Assembly: GCA_002726915.1 (NCBI GenBank)
Contig: PBSY01000074.1
Span: 1 to 64,000 of the forward strand
Length of the DNA: 64,000 nt
Direction: 5' to 3'
DNA from: Verrucomicrobiales bacterium
Lineage (GTDB): Bacteria > Verrucomicrobiota > Verrucomicrobiia > Verrucomicrobiales > DEV007
Part shown: positions 11,796 to 57,467 of the stretch, one piece after another
Layout: each line of letters begins with the position of its first letter
Position numbering within the stretch: position 1 is the first letter of the stretch
Notes under the pieces: generated by a model
Told to the model about the DNA's origin: nothing
The model's database searches: none
What the model saw: the letters and a program-made list of their open reading frames with translations, nothing else
Position numbers and translations under genes: made by a program

Positions 11796-12371
11796 GTTGT
11801 AGACACTCACGGAAGGAACGTTGCCCAATCCATAAAAAAGTCAGGAGTTTATTTTCGCCTGTCGATGTAAATATTTTCCCCGAAAACGGTGACTCCGGAG
11901 GCGGCAGCGCTACCCCGATCGCGAAGCACATTTATAAAAATGACACAATTATAATGAAGGCCACAAAATCGACTTCATGCCCCTACCCTGGCCACTGAAC
12001 AGACTGGTCAGGTGATGAACGTCCCCGTTTGACAACAACGACCTCATGACCTTTGAATCAAGCCGGCGCTGACTCAGAATCTGTGGTGGACGTGGCCGCA
12101 TTCGTGCCCGAGACTCCGTGGCGGCGTTATTTTCGTCCATTCGGAGGCTTACTGGCTCCTCCCACGATCAGACAAAATTCTGACCAACGTGGCCAAGTAG
12201 GCAATATGAATTCAAAACCCAAACCTAAGTTCCGCCTCCTTTAATGGCTGCGGATGTGCAACTAGTCACGTGTTTCGCCGACCTTCAATACTCTGCCCTG
12301 GGATTTCGCGTTTGCCCCTACCGCTCAGGCACAAGGGCCCGAAACCCTTTAACCATCCTTTAAAAAAAATC
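11796..12371. other. Long intergenic region before RNase G
   Basis: About 575 bases without a supported gene. Frames of roughly 60 codons exist on both strands (for example minus 11949-12140 and plus 12053-12244), but they have no recognisable motifs, and no ribosome-binding site was confirmed. A poly-A run lies just before the RNase G start. A decayed gene or a long leader for the RNase transcript is possible. Confidence 0.35.
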
Positions 12372-13994
12372 ATGTTCAGTAAAATTCGTAAGTTTTTTGG
12401 TCCCAAGAAATTAGCCGAAGGAAATAAAATTGTCGTTAACTGTGAGAAACTTGAAACCCGTGTAGCACTGCTAGAAAACGGCTCGCTGGAGGAATACACA
12501 GTAGAACGCTCCAATGAAGAAAATATTGTCGGCTCAATCTTCAAGGGAATCGTCCGAAATATCGAGCCGGGCCTCAACGCGATGTTCGTTGATATCGGTC
12601 TCGAAAAGAACGCCTTCCTCCACTTCTGGGACGCGATTCCCGAAGCTCTCGACTCAAGCCTCGAAGAGATTCAGAGAAATGGAGGGAAAAGCCACAGCAA
12701 GGCCCAGCAAGGTGGCGGCGGCAAAGGAAAAGGAAAAGGGAAAGGCCGTAGTAAGAATCGGATCCAGTCCAAAGACATTCCCAACCTCTACCCGGTCGGT
12801 TCTGAGGTGCTTGTCCAAGTGACCAAGGGACCCATCGGAACGAAGGGCCCCCGAATCACCACCAACATTTCTCTTCCAGGCCGCTACATGGTCCTAATGC
12901 CGCGCAATGACCAACTCGGCATCTCACGCAAGATCGACGACCCCAAAGAACGTGCCCGTCTTCGCAAGATCATGGGTGAAAAGCTGACCATCCCTGCCAA
13001 AATGGGGGTGATTCTTCGCACCGTCTCTGCCGGCCAGAAAGTTCGCTATTTTGTCCGTGACCTCGCTATCCTCCTGGATCAGTGGGATGAGATCGAAGAA
13101 GAGGCCGCCAACAGCAAGGCGCCCGCCTGCGTCTTTCGCGAACCCGACCTCATCGAGCGAACCGTCCGTGATTTTCTGACTGACGAAATCGACGAAGTCC
13201 TTTGCGACGATTCTGAAGCGGCTGAGCAGATGAAAGAGCTCATCGGTGTTATTTCACGTCGTTCCAAAAAGAGAATCCAATACTTTGAGACGCCTATTCC
13301 GATTTTTGAAAAGCTGGGCATTCAGCGCCAGATCGATGACGCATTCTTCCGCCAAGTTTGGCTACCCAGCGGCGGCTACCTCGTCATTGACGAAACCGAA
13401 GCGCTCATCGCTATCGACGTAAATACTGGCCGGGCCAAGAATCAGGACAAAATGATCCTGCAAACTAACCTCGAAGCTGCGGAAGCAGTTGCCCGCCAAT
13501 TGCGACTCCGCAACATCGGCGGTCTTGTCGTGATCGACTTCATCGACATGAGGGCTCGCCGTGATCAAATGGCTGTCTACAAGGTGATGCGCGAGCGCCT
13601 TAAGAAAGATAAGGCAAAGACCCAAGTTACTCAGATTTCGCAGCTCGGTCTGATGGAAATGACCCGCCAGCGCCTCCACGAAAGCCTCAACATCACGATC
13701 AATGAACCCTGCCACTTCTGTCAGGGGCGCGGCATGATCAAAAGCGCCGAATCCATGAGCGTGGAATTACAGCGGAAACTCAAAGGCATTCTTGCCAAGA
13801 ACGAGAGCCAGAAAGAACTCATCGTAATCGTTCACCCAGACGTTATGGAACGGCTTCGTACTCACGATGGCGAACTATTCGTGGAACTTGAGCGTCGCCA
13901 CAACGCCCGACTCACATTCCGCAGCGATGCGACCTACTATCGCGATCAAGTCGTCGTCGCCGACGCAAAAACGCAGAAAGAAATTCGAGATTAG
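12372..13994 (+). CDS. rng: Ribonuclease E/G family endoribonuclease
   Basis: Single-strand endoribonuclease of mRNA decay and rRNA processing, 540 residues, with no long C-terminal degradosome scaffold, so closer to RNase G. The start MFSKIRKFFG is preferred over an in-frame upstream start 34 codons earlier because it lies next to the conserved S1 region. The S1 domain (residues 35-150) holds a Lys/Gly-rich insert (HSKAQQGGGGKGKGKG). The catalytic DNase I-like region shows IDVNTG and VVIDFIDM with the metal-binding Asp residues. The Zn-link is CHFCQGRG. Confidence 0.95.
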   Translation: MFSKIRKFFGPKKLAEGNKIVVNCEKLETRVALLENGSLEEYTVERSNEENIVGSIFKGIVRNIEPGLNAMFVDIGLEKNAFLHFWDAIPEALDSSLEEIQRNGGKSHSKAQQGGGGKGKGKGKGRSKNRIQSKDIPNLYPVGSEVLVQVTKGPIGTKGPRITTNISLPGRYMVLMPRNDQLGISRKIDDPKERARLRKIMGEKLTIPAKMGVILRTVSAGQKVRYFVRDLAILLDQWDEIEEEAANSKAPACVFREPDLIERTVRDFLTDEIDEVLCDDSEAAEQMKELIGVISRRSKKRIQYFETPIPIFEKLGIQRQIDDAFFRQVWLPSGGYLVIDETEALIAIDVNTGRAKNQDKMILQTNLEAAEAVARQLRLRNIGGLVVIDFIDMRARRDQMAVYKVMRERLKKDKAKTQVTQISQLGLMEMTRQRLHESLNITINEPCHFCQGRGMIKSAESMSVELQRKLKGILAKNESQKELIVIVHPDVMERLRTHDGELFVELERRHNARLTFRSDATYYRDQVVVADAKTQKEIRD

Positions 13995-14012
13995 ATCTCC
14001 ACTAACTCGGCC

Positions 14013-14335
14013 ATGACGCAGAGGCTATTCAGGAATGTGTTTGGCCTATTGGCTGTGGCGTCTCTTCTCTCATCCCGTTTGGCAAAATCGACTTATTTCG
14101 TCACTCGAGCGAAGTCAACAACACCAGTCTCGATGATTCTCAGCTGATTTTTGAGGGGGAAGACCAGCGTCCTGTCAGGATTCGCTGGGGCTATGCCGGC
14201 GACCAAGCGAGACAGAGGTGCCTGCAATTCTTAAAAACTCGCGGCGAGAGTTGTCTCTCTGACTCGGGCCAAAGCAGGCCGGGTATCCTAAGGCCGGTCT
14301 GGATTCCCCCGCCTGCCCGGAGCCGGGAGAAATAA
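14013..14335 (+). pseudogene. Possible frameshifted secreted protein gene
   Basis: An ATG at 14013 begins a signal-peptide-like sequence (MTQRLFRNVFGLLAVASLL). The frame that then looks coding is a different one, open from about 14006 to the TAA at 14333. It encodes a hydrophilic stretch including FGKIDLFRHSSEVNN and LIFEGEDQRPVRIRWGYAG but has no start codon. A single -1/+2 shift near 14055-14070 would join a secretion signal to that stretch, giving about 107 residues. No family is recognised. Either a decayed gene or chance. Confidence 0.28.
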
Positions 14336-14420
14336 TTGACTAGATTTCCCGCGCGCTTCGTCAGTCTTGTGAAAGTTCGTTGTTCGTTGTATCCCCTTTA
14401 TATCCTCAATCTCGCCTATC

Positions 14421-15179
14421 ATGAACATTCGAGCCTACACGACGCTGCTCATTACATCTTTCTTCTTCCTCCCTGCTTTGCAGGCACAACTTCGACGCCC
14501 CGGCGTGGTCACGATTAAAAAAGAGGACCGAAAGTCCAGCCAACTTGTCAAAGAAGACGGAGTAATTTATCTCGAGGGCATGGTCGTCAATGACGTAGTT
14601 GTTCGTATTTCCATCGCTGCGCCAGCTTACTCGACGCTCGCGGCCGACCGATGGCTTGGGACCTTGCTCCCCAACCAAAATGCGATCCTCTTAGCCGTTA
14701 GCGAAAAAGCTTACCGGGTCCGCGCCAAAGCCAAGCAAGGCCAAATCGCTGGCTGGATCAGCAAAGGGGCTGTTGCTGGACTGCACGAGAGCTTCGAAAC
14801 CAATCTCCACGCATTTTATGATCGCTACGTGGGAGTCAAGGACCTGATTGACAATCATCAGGTCGCTCTTGGTATGACGCTCAGCGAGGTCATCGCGTCG
14901 ATAGGCCCCCCCGACAAGCGGAGTTCCAAGGTGACGGAGGAAGGGCGCAGCGATACTCTTGAGTTCATTGCCTATGAGAGGGTTCCCCGAACCGTGGTCG
15001 GTTATGACTCTTTTGGCGTTCCCTACAACACCACTACCTACGTAGAGGTCGAGTCCAGCCGCGTTACCATCGAACTTGAAAATAACACCGTCATCACGAT
15101 TGAGGATTCAGAGGGTGTCGATCTCAGCCGGAATGGCGGCACCCTCTCAGTTGTGCCACCACCGGTGTTTTTGTTCTAA
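14421..15179 (+). CDS. Secreted protein with SH3-like and SmpA/BamE-like regions
   Basis: Exported protein of 252 residues with a clear signal peptide (MNIRAYTTLLITSFFFLPALQAQ). The middle part (about residues 45-115, ending in AGWISKGAVAGL) looks like a bacterial SH3-like barrel. The later LGMTLSEVIASIGPPD motif, followed by strands YERVPRTVVGYD and RVTIELENNTV, matches the SmpA/OmlA (BamE) pattern. No exact family was identified. It probably acts in the periplasm or envelope. Confidence 0.65.
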   Translation: MNIRAYTTLLITSFFFLPALQAQLRRPGVVTIKKEDRKSSQLVKEDGVIYLEGMVVNDVVVRISIAAPAYSTLAADRWLGTLLPNQNAILLAVSEKAYRVRAKAKQGQIAGWISKGAVAGLHESFETNLHAFYDRYVGVKDLIDNHQVALGMTLSEVIASIGPPDKRSSKVTEEGRSDTLEFIAYERVPRTVVGYDSFGVPYNTTTYVEVESSRVTIELENNTVITIEDSEGVDLSRNGGTLSVVPPPVFLF

Positions 15180-15361
15180 GAAGCAGCGGCAAGTTGCGTT
15201 ATTTCTGCCCAAAAGATCGAGTTTCGGAAAAAAAACGCTTTTCCGCACGTAACCGGTTTTGACAATCTGCTGCGAGTGTTTCTCCTTGATGCACGGCAGC
15301 GATTTATGATTCCATCTACATTCTAAAAACCAACTAAATTTATCACCAGGCACAAAAGACT

Positions 15362-15985
15362 ATGGCACACGAACTACCCGAACTACCCTACGCCCAAGAA
15401 GGCCTCGAACCTCATATCGACTCGGCTACCATGGGCATCCACCACGGAAAGCACCACGCGACCTACATCGCTAACCTCAACAAAGCGTTGGATGGCAATG
15501 CTGAACTTGAGACCAAATCAATTGAGGATCTCATTTCGAATCTCGAATCCGTTCCCGAAGGAATTCGCGGAGCCGTTCGCAACAATGGGGGTGGCCACGC
15601 CAATCACTCCCTTTTCTGGTCCAGCATGAGCCCTAGCGGCGGCGGAACCCCATCTGGGGATCTCGCCAATGCTATCGATGCAGCTTTCGGCTCTCTCGAC
15701 GAATTTAAAGCAGCATTTAAAGCAGCGGCTCTGACACGCTTCGGTTCTGGCTGGGCTTGGCTCGTGAGAAAAGATGACGGTACCGTTGCGGTGACCAGCA
15801 CCCCAAACCAAGACAACCCGATCATGGGCGCCGCAGCCGGTTGCGATGGCAGCCAACCGCTGCTAGGCCTCGACGTCTGGGAACATGCTTACTACCTCAA
15901 CTATCAAAACCGCCGTCCAGATTACGTCGACGCATTCTGGAATGTAGTAGACTGGGACGCTGTGGCAGCACGTTTCGCAGGCTGA
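15362..15985 (+). CDS. sodA: Superoxide dismutase, Fe/Mn family
   Basis: Converts superoxide to peroxide and oxygen, 207 residues. Metal ligands are all present: His in [12 protein letters not shown], His in GHANHSLFW, and Asp and His in [20 protein letters not shown]. The NQDNP stretch and GGGHANH are more typical of Mn-type or cambialistic enzymes than of Fe-SOD, so sodA is preferred, but metal use is not certain. No signal peptide. A strong terminator follows, so it is probably transcribed alone. Confidence 0.95.
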
Positions 15986-16198: not shown

Positions 16199-16214
16199 CC
16201 ACTACATATTGTGC
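16199..16214. promoter_or_regulatory. NrdR-type box 1 upstream of nrdB
   Basis: The 16-mer CCACTACATATTGTGC matches the known NrdR-box consensus acaCwAtATaTwGtgt at 13 or 14 of 16 positions, depending on how the end bases are counted. It starts 224 bases before the nrdB ATG and is paired with a second box exactly 31 bases downstream, the usual three-turn spacing of NrdR sites. Confidence 0.65.
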
Positions 16215-16229
16215 ATTTTTATCTGCGTG

Positions 16230-16245
16230 CACCCAGATGTGGTGT
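16230..16245. promoter_or_regulatory. NrdR-type box 2 upstream of nrdB
   Basis: The 16-mer CACCCAGATGTGGTGT is a weaker match (about 9-10 of 16) to the NrdR consensus but is itself an inverted repeat (CACC...GGTG). Its start-to-start distance of 31 bases from box 1 is the main support. Confidence 0.5.
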
Positions 16246-16422: not shown

Positions 16423-17505
16423 ATGGAAAAAAGCTTCAAAATAGGAGATCGTAAATTTGTCCTGAATCAAGAAAAAGCAGAAGAAGCATTCTCTGCCAAA
16501 AGAGTTATCAACGGACGACAAACAGAAGCTTTCAATCTTTTGCCCCTCAAATACACGTGGGCCTATGACTTGTATGGCAAAATGAAGGCCAACCACTGGG
16601 AGCCAGAGGATATTCAGATGCAGAAGGACATCGAGCAGTGGCAAGGCAACGATCTCAGTGACAGCGAACGCTGGATCATTAGAATGGGTATCGGTTATTT
16701 TTCTGCTGCCGAAGGTATTGTAGGTGACAACGTGCTTCACGTTATCCGTGAAAAAGTAACCGCGCCCGAACTCAAACTAGTTCTCGGTAGGCATGCCCAC
16801 GAAGAGAACATTCACGCTGACAGCCTTCTCTACATGATTTCCTCTCTTGGAATCAATCCGCATGAGTGCGAAGCGATGTTTGAGCAAATCCCAACAATTA
16901 AGAAGAAGAACGAGTTTATCACTAATATTTCTCACGATGTTCGTCGCGAAATGGATCTGACGGACCCTGAGAACAAAAGGCTCTTCGCCAAGAACGTGTT
17001 TCTATTCGGCCAGTGCATGGAGGGCACTCAATTCTATGGTCTCTTCGGAATGATTTTGAGCCTTTATCGCCAAAACAAATTTCCCGGCATTGGTCAAATG
17101 TTTCGCTACACCCTGCGTGACGAATCCAACCACATCGAATTGCTCCGCAATCTCTTCATGGATTTGATCAGCGAGAACATGGAAATTTGGACTGAAGAAT
17201 TTAAGAATGAGCTCGTCGACACCATGAGACAGGCTATTGTGTTGGAGAAAGAATTCATCAATGATTGTCTCCCAGTTAGTCAGGTTGGTCTCAATGCTAA
17301 CGAATTCTGCCAATATATTGATTTCATCGCTGATCGACGTCTTGAGGGAGTTGGACTCAATCCTCTCAACCCCGGTGTTCAGAATCCCTTCCCATGGCTC
17401 GCTGAGACCATGGATATTAAGAAGGAAGCCAATTTCTTCGAGCAGCGTGTCACGGAATATCAGAAAGCCTCCGCCCTTTCTACCGTCGACGACGACGAGC
17501 TTTAG
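16423..17505 (+). CDS. nrdB: Ribonucleotide reductase small subunit, class Ic-type (R2c)
   Basis: Radical-generating subunit that pairs with NrdA to make deoxyribonucleotides, 360 residues. Metal ligands can be read: Glu97 (SAAEGIVGDN), Glu128 and His131 (EENIHADSL), Glu200 (CMEGTQF), Glu234 and His237 (RDESNHIEL). The first ligand is Glu, as in Chlamydia R2c, not Asp as in E. coli. The position of the radical Tyr122 is Leu135. Chlamydia has Phe there and uses a Mn/Fe cofactor instead of a tyrosyl radical. Overall similarity to chlamydial R2c is strong (IQMQKDIE, QNKFPGIG, NPFPW, EYQKAS). The C-terminal Tyr needed for radical transfer is present. Confidence 0.95.
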   Translation: MEKSFKIGDRKFVLNQEKAEEAFSAKRVINGRQTEAFNLLPLKYTWAYDLYGKMKANHWEPEDIQMQKDIEQWQGNDLSDSERWIIRMGIGYFSAAEGIVGDNVLHVIREKVTAPELKLVLGRHAHEENIHADSLLYMISSLGINPHECEAMFEQIPTIKKKNEFITNISHDVRREMDLTDPENKRLFAKNVFLFGQCMEGTQFYGLFGMILSLYRQNKFPGIGQMFRYTLRDESNHIELLRNLFMDLISENMEIWTEEFKNELVDTMRQAIVLEKEFINDCLPVSQVGLNANEFCQYIDFIADRRLEGVGLNPLNPGVQNPFPWLAETMDIKKEANFFEQRVTEYQKASALSTVDDDEL

Positions 17506-17633: not shown

Positions 17634-20600
17634 ATGATAACCCGCAATTTTATCGAACAAGATATTGAACTTCAGCGTGCTGCAGAAACGCCAGAGGACA
17701 TGAAACCCCGCTTCAACTGGGGCGAAATGGCGAAAGCGCCTGAGCTTCCTTCGCCACGGATTCATGTTGAAGCGGGTAACGGTCAGGAAGAGCTTAGCGT
17801 TGAGCAGATCGCGGAAACGGTGGGTAAGGCAGTCACTGACTTGGCACTTTCGAGAAAACAAGACGACATATTCAACGAATCAAATCAGCAGCTTGTAGCC
17901 AACATCGTAGCTTCGGTTTCAGATATGCTTCACGCCAAGGTTAGCGGCGAAGACAACGATGCTCCAGTTCTTCTTTCCGGGGAGGAACTCACCTCAATCA
18001 TTGAGCAAGCCCTCGTTAGACAAAATGCTCATGATGTGGCTAAAAGTCTCCTCATTCGTCGTAAGAAAACTGAACCTGGGTTCAATCTTATCTCTGATAA
18101 CGAAAAGCCAGTTTGCAAAGTGATCCGCCGCAACGGTGAGGTCGTGGCGTGGTTGCCCCATAAAATCGAAGTCGCCGTGCGAAGCGCCTTTCTCTCCCAG
18201 GGCATGGACTCTTCTCCAGCCAAAGAAGTCTCCGAAGCTTTAACCGATCGCCTCGCTCACAGCGGTCAGGAATTTATTCGTATCGAAGAACTCCAAGACT
18301 GTGTTCAGGAGGAACTGATGCGTCAAGGCCACTTCAAGGTCGCGGAAGCCTACATACTCTACCGTGCTCACCGCGCAGCCGAGCGTGCCGTCGACGAGGA
18401 AGAGCAAACACTCGAACTAGAGTCCACCCAAGAGTCGATGATCGTGGTCAACCGCGCCGATGGATCCAGCGATCTCTGGGATGGCCTCGACCTTCGTAAA
18501 CGCATCGAATTCGCCTCAACAGGTCTTGAACTCTGCCTCAACGCTGAAGAGATCGAGCAGGAACTTCGTCGTGCCTTCTTCAACGAGATGAGCGAAAGCG
18601 ATCTTAAAAAGACCGTCATTCTTAACGCCAAGAGCCTCATCGAAAAGGATGGAGATTTCGCCAAGTTTGCGGGTCGTATTCTTCTCACTTATATCTACGA
18701 GGAAGTCCTTGATTGGGACATCGTTCGCGATGGCGTCCGCTCTCTCGGAGAATTCCATCGTCGTGCCTTCAAGCAGAATCTTGTTCGCGGCACTGAGATT
18801 GAACGCATCCACCCACGATTGCTCGAATATAATCTCGACCGTCTTGCCGACGCAGTGAACCCGACTGCTGACCTTGACTTTGACTATCTCGGTATCCAGA
18901 CCCTTTACGACCGCTATCTCATCGTCGACAAGACCGCTGAAAAACACCGCCGTCTTGAAACGCCCCAGCTATTTTGGATGCGCGTTTCCATGGGGTTGAT
19001 GATCGACGAAAAGAACGATCGCGAAAACCGTATTATTGACCTCTACCGCCTCTACTCGAGCCGTCGTTTCTGTTCGTCTACGCCAACTCTTTTCAACTCA
19101 GGCACCCTGCACAGCCAACTGTCATCCTGTTACCTTTACAAGGTTGACGACAGCATTGAGTCCATTATGCAGCGAGGTGTCGCTGACAACGCCTACCTCT
19201 CCAAGTGGGCGGGCGGCCTTGGTGGCTCGTGGACATCGGTTCGTGGAACGGGCAGCTACATCAAGGGTACCAACGGTGAAAGTCAGGGCGTAATCCCCTT
19301 CCTTAAGCTCCACAACGACCAGCTCGTCGCAGTCAACCAAGGCGGCAAGCGCCGCGGGTCTGGTTGTGCCTACCTTGAATCGTGGCACAATGATATCGAC
19401 GACTTCCTTGAGTTGCGCAAAAACACCGGTGATGAGCGTCGACGTGCTCACGACATGAATACCGCAAACTGGATTCCAGATTTGTTCATGAAGCGCATGG
19501 AGGCTCGCGGCAGCTGGACCCTCTTCCGTGCCAACGAGGCAGCAGACCTCCACGACCTCTACGGCAAAGCTTTCGAGGAACGCTACGAGCAATACGAAGT
19601 CGATGCCCGTGAAGGCAAGATATATGGTAAGGAAGTCCCGGCGATCGATCTATGGAAGCGCATGCTGAAAATGATCTTCGAAACCGGTCACCCATGGATA
19701 ACTTTTAAAGACCCCTGCAACGTGCGCAGCCCTCAGGACCACACAGGTGTCATCCACAGCTCCAACCTCTGCACCGAGATTACCTTGAACACTTCGCACG
19801 ACGAGACCGCCGTGTGTAACCTTGGCTCGGTGGTGCTCGACTCTCACCTCACCGACGAGGGCGAGCTCGACCTGATCAAGCTCAAGGAAACTATCTTCAC
19901 CGCTGTCCGTGCTCTAGACAACGTCATCGATATTAATTTCTACCCAACTGATGCCGCTGCTAACGCCAACCAGCGCCACCGACCAGTAGGCCTTGGGGTT
20001 ATGGGCCTCCAAAATGCACTTTTCCTCCGCAACACGTCGTTCGCCAGCGAAGAGGCAATCGACTTCAACGATGAGTTCATGGAGGCCATTGCCTATTTTG
20101 CCTATGAAGCTTCCAGCGATCTTGCCGCAGAGCGGGGCAGTTACTCTACCTACGACGGTTCCAAGTGGAGCCGAGGCATCATGCCACACGATACAGTCGA
20201 CATGCTCGAAGAGCAACGCGGTGAGCCCATTGATGTTACCCGTGGTGGCAAAATGGACTGGGATGCTCTGCGCGAAAAAATCCAAAAGCAGGGTATGCGC
20301 AACTCGAACGTGCTCGCCATTGCTCCGACGGCGACAATTTCCAACATCATGGGGAGCACTCCGTGCATTGAGCCGACCTTTAAAAACCTTTTTGTGAAAG
20401 GTAACCTTTCCGGTGACTTCATCGTGCTAAATCAGTATCTCGTTCGCGATCTTAAAGAACTCAATCTCTGGGGTGAAGAAATGGTAGATCGTCTCAAGTA
20501 TTACGATGGAGAACTCGCCGATATCGACGAGATCCCCCAACACCTCAAAGAGAAGTATGCCACCGCATTCTCCATCGACTACACTTGGCTCATCGACGCG

Positions 20601-20894
20601 GCAGCCCGACGCCAAAAGTGGATCGACCAGTCTCAGTCTGTGAACCTCTTCCTGGCTACCCCGGACATGAAGACCCTGTCCCACATGTATCGAGCGGCCT
20701 GGCGTAAGGGTCTCAAGACCACATACTACCTCCGGACTCTGCAGGCTTCCAATATCGAAAAAGCCACAACCAAGGTGAAAAAAGAAGTTCGTATCGGAAA
20801 TGAAGAGACAAAGAAAGAACACACCGAGGCCGAAAAAGAAGCCTGCTCGCTCGAAGCTCTAATGAGCGGAGAGGAATGTGAGGCCTGCCAGTAG
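17634..20894 (+). CDS. nrdA: Ribonucleotide reductase large subunit, multi-ATP-cone
   Basis: Catalytic subunit of class I ribonucleotide reductase, 1086 residues against about 760 in E. coli. The extra N-terminus holds ATP-cone-like units. The first (about 45-140, ending VAKSLLIRRKK) is degenerate. The second (about 155-250, from CKVIRRNGEVVAWLPHKIEVAV to AEAYILYRAHRAA) is intact. A third cone-like piece (about 270-365) merges into the R1 N-domain. Catalytic residues are seen in LSSCYLY, NLCTE and AVCNLGS, with the Tyr pair in TTYYLRTLQ. The C-terminal redox Cys pair is ECEACQ. The chlamydial NrdA also has an extended ATP-cone region. Cotranscription with nrdB is likely. Confidence 0.95.
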   Translation: MITRNFIEQDIELQRAAETPEDMKPRFNWGEMAKAPELPSPRIHVEAGNGQEELSVEQIAETVGKAVTDLALSRKQDDIFNESNQQLVANIVASVSDMLHAKVSGEDNDAPVLLSGEELTSIIEQALVRQNAHDVAKSLLIRRKKTEPGFNLISDNEKPVCKVIRRNGEVVAWLPHKIEVAVRSAFLSQGMDSSPAKEVSEALTDRLAHSGQEFIRIEELQDCVQEELMRQGHFKVAEAYILYRAHRAAERAVDEEEQTLELESTQESMIVVNRADGSSDLWDGLDLRKRIEFASTGLELCLNAEEIEQELRRAFFNEMSESDLKKTVILNAKSLIEKDGDFAKFAGRILLTYIYEEVLDWDIVRDGVRSLGEFHRRAFKQNLVRGTEIERIHPRLLEYNLDRLADAVNPTADLDFDYLGIQTLYDRYLIVDKTAEKHRRLETPQLFWMRVSMGLMIDEKNDRENRIIDLYRLYSSRRFCSSTPTLFNSGTLHSQLSSCYLYKVDDSIESIMQRGVADNAYLSKWAGGLGGSWTSVRGTGSYIKGTNGESQGVIPFLKLHNDQLVAVNQGGKRRGSGCAYLESWHNDIDDFLELRKNTGDERRRAHDMNTANWIPDLFMKRMEARGSWTLFRANEAADLHDLYGKAFEERYEQYEVDAREGKIYGKEVPAIDLWKRMLKMIFETGHPWITFKDPCNVRSPQDHTGVIHSSNLCTEITLNTSHDETAVCNLGSVVLDSHLTDEGELDLIKLKETIFTAVRALDNVIDINFYPTDAAANANQRHRPVGLGVMGLQNALFLRNTSFASEEAIDFNDEFMEAIAYFAYEASSDLAAERGSYSTYDGSKWSRGIMPHDTVDMLEEQRGEPIDVTRGGKMDWDALREKIQKQGMRNSNVLAIAPTATISNIMGSTPCIEPTFKNLFVKGNLSGDFIVLNQYLVRDLKELNLWGEEMVDRLKYYDGELADIDEIPQHLKEKYATAFSIDYTWLIDAAARRQKWIDQSQSVNLFLATPDMKTLSHMYRAAWRKGLKTTYYLRTLQASNIEKATTKVKKEVRIGNEETKKEHTEAEKEACSLEALMSGEECEACQ

Positions 20895-57377: not shown

Positions 57378-57467
57378 TGGCAGAGAGAGTGGGATTCGAA
57401 CCCACGGTAGGTTGCCCTACACTCGATTTCGAATCGAGCGCCTTAAACCAGACTCAGCCATCTCTCC
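57378..57467 (-). tRNA. tRNA-Ser (CGA anticodon)
   Basis: Full cloverleaf of 90 bases on the minus strand with an encoded CCA. Acceptor GGAGAGA pairs with TCTCTCT, with a first G.T pair. The anticodon stem CTCGA/TCGAG encloses the loop TTCGAAA with anticodon CGA. The long variable arm (TAGGGCAACCTA region) identifies a class II tRNA. The T arm is GTGGG-TTCGAAT-CCCAC. It reads UCG serine codons. Confidence 0.97.

Follow-up and report, generated by a model that had tools for sequence, protein, structure and literature searches.

How does a class I ribonucleotide reductase (RNR) hold the oxidising equivalent that starts its chemistry when its small subunit lacks the radical tyrosine? The question is raised by a gene at positions 16423–17505 on the forward strand of a 64,000-nucleotide stretch of Verrucomicrobiales DNA (contig PBSY01000074.1 of assembly GCA_002726915.1), which we analysed at its full length and call the window. 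The open reading frame starts with ATG, encodes 360 amino acids and contains zero internal stops. Its product scored 337 bits against the NCBIfam model NF005550 (cut-off 309) and 236 bits against the Pfam family PF00268, and the closest solved protein by sequence was Chlamydia trachomatis R2c (PDB 1syy, phmmer E=5e-82), followed by 6y2n, which likewise has a Glu/Phe site. The features that define a class I R2 were all found, namely six carboxylate and histidine ligands, a predicted ferritin-like fold, a C-terminal tyrosine and a partner nrdA, and R2 was strongly conserved across relatives. Comparison with known families confirms the product as an intact class I RNR small subunit (NrdB/R2), here called the Leu type.

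We placed the radical site by alignment to 1syy with phmmer. Leu135 (codon CTT, 16825–16827, forward strand) fell opposite Phe127 of the chlamydial protein, Glu97 (16711–16713, forward) opposite Glu89, Trp59 (16597–16599, forward) opposite Trp51 and Tyr137 opposite Tyr129. Leu135 lies four residues past the ligand His131 in the motif EENIHADSLLY; Glu97, the first metal ligand, lies in SAAEG, where Tyr-bearing rows carry Asp. The preliminary description of this DNA had read both features from the motifs, a leucine in place of the radical tyrosine and a glutamate as first ligand, and both readings held. The metal ligands are complete, with six of six present (E97, E128, H131, E200, E234 and H237). 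Also present are Tyr229 (17107–17109, forward), Asp233 and Tyr346 (17458–17460, forward), which align with Tyr222, Asp226 and Tyr338 of C. trachomatis R2c, and Trp59, Asp233 and Tyr346 were unchanged in every row of a 45-row and a 37-row alignment. We take Trp59 to be the radical-transfer tryptophan and Tyr229 to be the electron relay used in cofactor activation. For the C-terminal tyrosine equivalent to Tyr346, a role in radical transfer is given in an excerpt of PMC8463856.

Two other residues were considered for these roles and rejected. Trp46 is not the radical-transfer tryptophan, since it aligns with Trp38 of the chlamydial protein while Trp59 aligns with Trp51. Tyr137 had been named in the preliminary description as a residue that an alignment might place at the radical position; with Leu135 opposite Phe127 and Tyr137 itself opposite Tyr129, it is not the missing tyrosine, and in 11 rows tyrosine stands at both 135 and 137, so that it was discarded as a displaced radical site.

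Leucine occupied position 135 in 81 of 81 loci, comprising the window's own and 80 relatives, which are the closest ones because they were the best 80 of at least 575 found in the scan. It also occurred in 60 of the 91 R2 rows from a sample of the phylum, and with both counts in hand Leu135 is not a sequencing slip. R2 was present in 90 of the 288 genomes sampled. The remaining rows comprised 20 with Asp/Tyr and 11 with Glu/Phe as first ligand and radical-site residue, a count that excludes the window's own gene, two genes with Leu-like scores (in G199 and G274) and a 53-bit fragment (G257). A second phylum, that of genome G289, was reached via locus L070, whose record says Armatimonadetes; here R2 was present in 17 of 151 genomes, as 13 Glu/Leu genes (one of them partial, L200) and 4 Glu/Phe genes.

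The two positions varied together. Across 205 R2 rows, in which some genes count twice (the window's own, for example, and L070 with L196), we counted 155 Glu/Leu, 20 Glu/Phe, 30 Asp/Tyr and 0 mixed pairs, so that glutamate as first ligand always came with a residue other than tyrosine and aspartate always with tyrosine (205/205). A test of the coupling by independent pairs had no power, with just 2 pairs on supported branches (p=0.5). The 3 relatives on viral contigs were all Asp/Tyr; plasmid and phage relatives came from the 7 of 381 matching plasmid records and the 2 of 2224 phage records that were read.

Several R2s depart from the common pattern. Loci L153 (G116) and L157 (G207) each hold two tandem Leu-type genes, of which the second copies are about 51–53% identical to the window's R2 and keep all six ligands, while Tyr229 is replaced by Asn and Tyr137 by His; these second copies may serve as helper subunits in mixed dimers. 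L156 (G047) is a deep, divergent Leu-type R2 of about 52% identity with His at 137 and Glu at 46, and its genome also carries a class II RNR. L187 (G317) is a very divergent Glu/Phe R2 with the motifs NPMES and VNHTMAF on a long branch.

The partner gene nrdA (17634–20894, forward strand) encodes an RNR large subunit of 1086 amino acids (NF005544, 1257 bits) with one Pfam ATP-cone at residues 162–247 (PF03477). Aligned with the solved R1 5im3, NrdA contained SSNLCTE, AVCNLGS, TYYLR and a C-terminal CEAC, which we take to be the catalytic motifs. Among loci offering 800 bp or more of room, nrdA lay downstream of R2 in 73 of 75, the exceptions being L035 and L070. Upstream of nrdB, a NrdR-box-like site (16201–16212, forward strand) has 1 mismatch to ACWATATATWGT, presumably the NrdR-box consensus, and corresponds to the leading member of a pair of tandem sites that relatives carry. 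A degenerate second site 31 bp on (16232–16243, forward) was read from the sequence; it falls below the pair threshold here and is clearer in relatives such as L010 and L071. Single sites matching ACWATATATWGT at that level numbered 5 in the window against 2.2 expected; of 78 relatives, 46 had tandem sites 30–33 bp apart ahead of nrdB, compared with a rate of 0.0013 in block shuffles. NrdR itself was not found in the window's genome, which is 92.5% complete, and was present in 32 of the 36 genomes of the relatives search (the window's own included among the 36).

Upstream of nrdB lies an Fe/Mn superoxide dismutase gene (15362–15985, forward; PF02777 and PF00081). We rejected it as a conserved partner because 20 of 80 loci, short-flank loci counted in, had it in the vicinity of R2, and these were mainly the nearest relatives. 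The run from 12270 to 15985, consisting of RNase E/G, a protein at 14421–15179 and the dismutase, followed by nrdB, is kept in the nearest relatives; the protein at 14421–15179 had no Pfam match and has, by eye, a signal-like N-terminus. The sole Rfam match in the window at the gathering score was a tRNA gene at 57381–57467 on the reverse strand.

We then compared the protein with known systems. A structural model from the 37-row alignment had a pLDDT of 88, with residues 331–360, Tyr346 included, below 50; an earlier model from Leu-type rows alone was poor (pLDDT 70). The top 13 Foldseek matches were C. trachomatis NrdB chains, then came 6y2n, and the others listed scored lower; the best was 4m1i, the chlamydial Mn(II)Fe(II)-NrdB (E=9.7e-25, TM 0.85/0.92, 38% identity). 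Sequence and predicted fold both support the chlamydial Mn/Fe R2c proteins as the nearest solved relatives. The likeness to R2c (1syy and 4m1i) covers the Glu first ligand, the lack of a radical tyrosine, the same ligands, the same fold as predicted here, and equivalents of Tyr129, Tyr222, Trp51 and Tyr338, at 38–39% identity. Leucine replaces phenylalanine, however, further columns separate the two types, and the metals of the window's protein are assigned by analogy; the gene order is nrdB–nrdA in the window and nrdA–nrdB in C. trachomatis, according to an excerpt of PMC3019208.

The mark of class Ic, no tyrosine at the radical position, is present as Leu135, with Leu/Glu in place of the Phe/Glu pairing of the type member. 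The radical tyrosine and Asp first ligand of class Ia are replaced by Leu135 and Glu97. Class Ib (NrdF), which has a tyrosyl radical and NrdI as partner, is contradicted by Leu135, by a score of 72 bits against the 355 of the NrdF model and by the lack of an NrdI match in the 92.5% complete genome, and class Ie, which is characterised by replaced metal carboxylates and a metal-free DOPA, by the six ligands present. Class Id (NrdBi), with its Mn2 cofactor, shares the Glu first ligand and, if our reading is right, a metal-only oxidant. Excerpts of PMC8463856 and PMC6754362 describe class Id as keeping tyrosine at the radical site alongside Glu, with Trp seven residues past the ligand (+7) and, for members of the characterised subgroup, Lys four past it (+4; offsets that we derived from the residue numbers given there); the corresponding residues here are Leu135, Val104 and Gly101. 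Class O ferritin-like proteins carry either Phe or Leu there, which a passage of PMC9531940 likens to class Ic, but they form another RNR class and have minimal, unusually short C-termini that the Leu type does not share.

Whether the Leu type groups by descent with the chlamydial one is a separate matter, for which we computed trees without the two trait columns, ligand 1 and the radical site. The Leu rows were monophyletic throughout, with SH-aLRT support of 94 in a quick tree of 73 rows, 99 in a quick tree of 65 rows and 100/100 in a careful tree of 40 rows, from which the rows belonging to 13 named loci and the majority of the Leu rows had been removed. The 65-row set is the 73-row set minus 8 rows, dropped because in the larger tree long Asp/Tyr branches had joined with the Leu clade. 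In the 40-row tree, the Phe-type R2s of Verrucomicrobiota fell together with C. trachomatis R2c in a clade supported at 99/99. These Phe-type proteins (L085, L087, L090 and others) resemble the window's R2 in phylum, in the Glu ligand and in having a redox-inert residue, yet they group with the chlamydial protein and are 38–41% identical to the window's.

A single clade of all Glu rows, a grouping defined after the first trees had been viewed, was rejected (p-AU 0.016). As the trait columns had been left out of the tree, this argues that the first ligand and the radical site changed together, from Asp/Tyr to Glu/non-Tyr, more than once on the tree. A grouping of the Leu rows with the chlamydial Phe clade was absent from the best tree and was not rejected (p-AU 0.105), and the Leu rows grouped with two haloarchaeal Phe rows at 71/85. 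In these trees, then, the Leu type is a clade of its own. The preliminary description had called the enzyme class Ic-type; in terms of nearest solved proteins, by sequence and predicted fold, that assignment is supported, whereas common descent with the chlamydial Phe clade was neither shown nor rejected.

Leu and Phe types were separated by 42 alignment columns, position 135 included, each with one residue in more than 95% of Leu rows and a different one in more than 80% of Phe rows; the 8 near Asp/Tyr relatives match the Phe type at the majority of these columns. Several of the columns adjoin ligands (G98, N129, T202, Q203 and T230). Because 42 columns differ, several of them beside ligands, the metal preference of the Phe clade cannot be transferred with certainty.

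What, then, takes the place of the tyrosine? With tyrosine lost together with Glu at ligand 1, the relay residues intact and conservation strong, a metal-only oxidant is the simple reading, and we infer that the Leu-type R2 very probably uses one. Mn and Fe are its fairly likely metals by analogy, and Mn(IV)/Fe(III), the nearest precedent, is the most likely cofactor. We accordingly lean towards a working RNR of an Akkermansiaceae-like Verrucomicrobiota bacterium, possibly its only one, that stores its oxidising equivalent on an Mn(IV)/Fe(III) dinuclear cluster rather than on a tyrosine. An Mn(II)/Fe(II) pair bound by E97, E128, H131, E200, E234 and H237 would be oxidised by O2 (or peroxide), with an electron for activation delivered via Tyr229 and Trp59; once formed, the Mn(IV)/Fe(III) cluster would accept an electron that the active-site cysteine of NrdA passes on via Trp59 and Tyr346. 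Leu135 would be an inert filler of the pocket occupied elsewhere by Tyr122 or Phe127. The window's genome has four matches to the Nramp family of Mn/Fe transporters.

The metal-only oxidant could also be built on another pair, either the Mn2(IV,III) of class Id or a di-iron state of the Fe(IV)/Fe(III) type, and we regard this as possible though rather unlikely. The clade-specific polar residues beside the ligands point that way, as does a kinship with chlamydial R2c that the trees neither show nor reject (p-AU 0.105); the dismutase neighbouring R2 in close relatives is a hint of oxygen stress only. Yet the Tyr, Lys(+4) and Trp(+7) of class Id are Leu135, Gly101 and Val104 here, and the nearest structures are Mn/Fe proteins. 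A bolder proposal, which we hold to be doubtful, is that the Leu type constitutes a further class I subclass spanning Verrucomicrobiota and the second phylum, which would have lost the tyrosine separately from chlamydial R2c and rebuilt a polar second sphere, and which would run on a metal pair or an activation route peculiar to it.

A protein radical kept on another tyrosine, such as Tyr137 or the clade-fixed Tyr92, seems improbable. Tyr137 is only two residues from the radical site, and position 92 is Tyr in 155/155 Leu rows but Phe in 20/20 Phe rows and 8/8 near Tyr rows. Tyr137, however, is common to chlamydial R2c and to Tyr-bearing relatives, and the divergent L156 and the second copy of each tandem pair have His in its place; Tyr at 92 also occurs in E. 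coli-like class Ia rows, and those enzymes are not known to use it. That the protein is an R2-like ligand-binding oxidase (R2lox) or a decayed R2 is highly improbable: R2lox models do score 20–56 bits, but the five listed fall far below their cut-offs (best 56.4 versus 194), Tyr346 and nrdA are present, conservation is strong, and in a good part of the carrier genomes no further RNR was found.

The weight that the Leu-type enzyme would carry in the cell depends on what other reductases accompany it. The window's genome has one R2 gene; in this assembly, 92.5% complete, we found no class II RNR (the class II model matched just the genome's own NrdA, below the cut-off), no NrdD and no NrdI (zero PF07972 matches). 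Given the incompleteness and the missing NrdR, these RNR absences are weak evidence. Of the 58 Leu-type genomes in the phylum sample, 38 had, among the matches listed, neither NrdJ over the cut-off nor NrdD; 14 had NrdJ, in a tally covering 101 of the 103 genomes over the cut-off, and 11 had NrdD, G134 with its near-cut-off NrdJ being counted there. Thirteen of the 38 carry a second, weaker NrdJ match, which leaves 25 by a strict count. Five nearly complete genomes of the sample (G010, G075, G080, G099 and G283) have no R2, no NrdD and weak NrdJ matches only; since such genomes must hold a reductase, the R2, NrdJ and NrdD models miss some. Judged by gene content, the Leu-type RNR is likely indispensable in many carriers, and possibly it is the only reductase of the window's bacterium.

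We also weighed the findings against the literature. The preliminary description had predicted insensitivity to radical scavengers such as hydroxyurea, which goes too far for a class Ic enzyme, as hydroxyurea reduces the class Ic cofactor (excerpts of PMC8463856 and PMC11883743). The former describes fast interception of the pathway radical in turnover and slow direct reduction of the cofactor; in the latter, hydroxyurea was used to reduce it. That R2c-like sequences can carry leucine, as the preliminary description remarked, is already in print: a passage of PMC3824934, citing Hogbom 2010, documents R2c with Leu, Ile or Val replacing Phe, the same substitution as here. A search of one open-access library, judged by titles, found no characterised Leu-type R2, and the class Ic work found in print concerns the Phe-bearing chlamydial enzyme.

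The Leu-type R2 is thus confirmed as a real, lineage-wide variant, the substitution itself being already known, and the Leu-bearing RNR, like the Chlamydia enzyme, probably relies on nothing but its two metal ions to initiate catalysis. Because Verrucomicrobiota hold both types, a matched Phe/Leu comparison is possible, and the switch from Asp/Tyr to Glu/non-Tyr gives a testable sequence rule. A Leu lineage on which many free-living bacteria seemingly depend for their dNTPs may help to identify which residues, beyond the loss of the tyrosine, make an Mn/Fe site.
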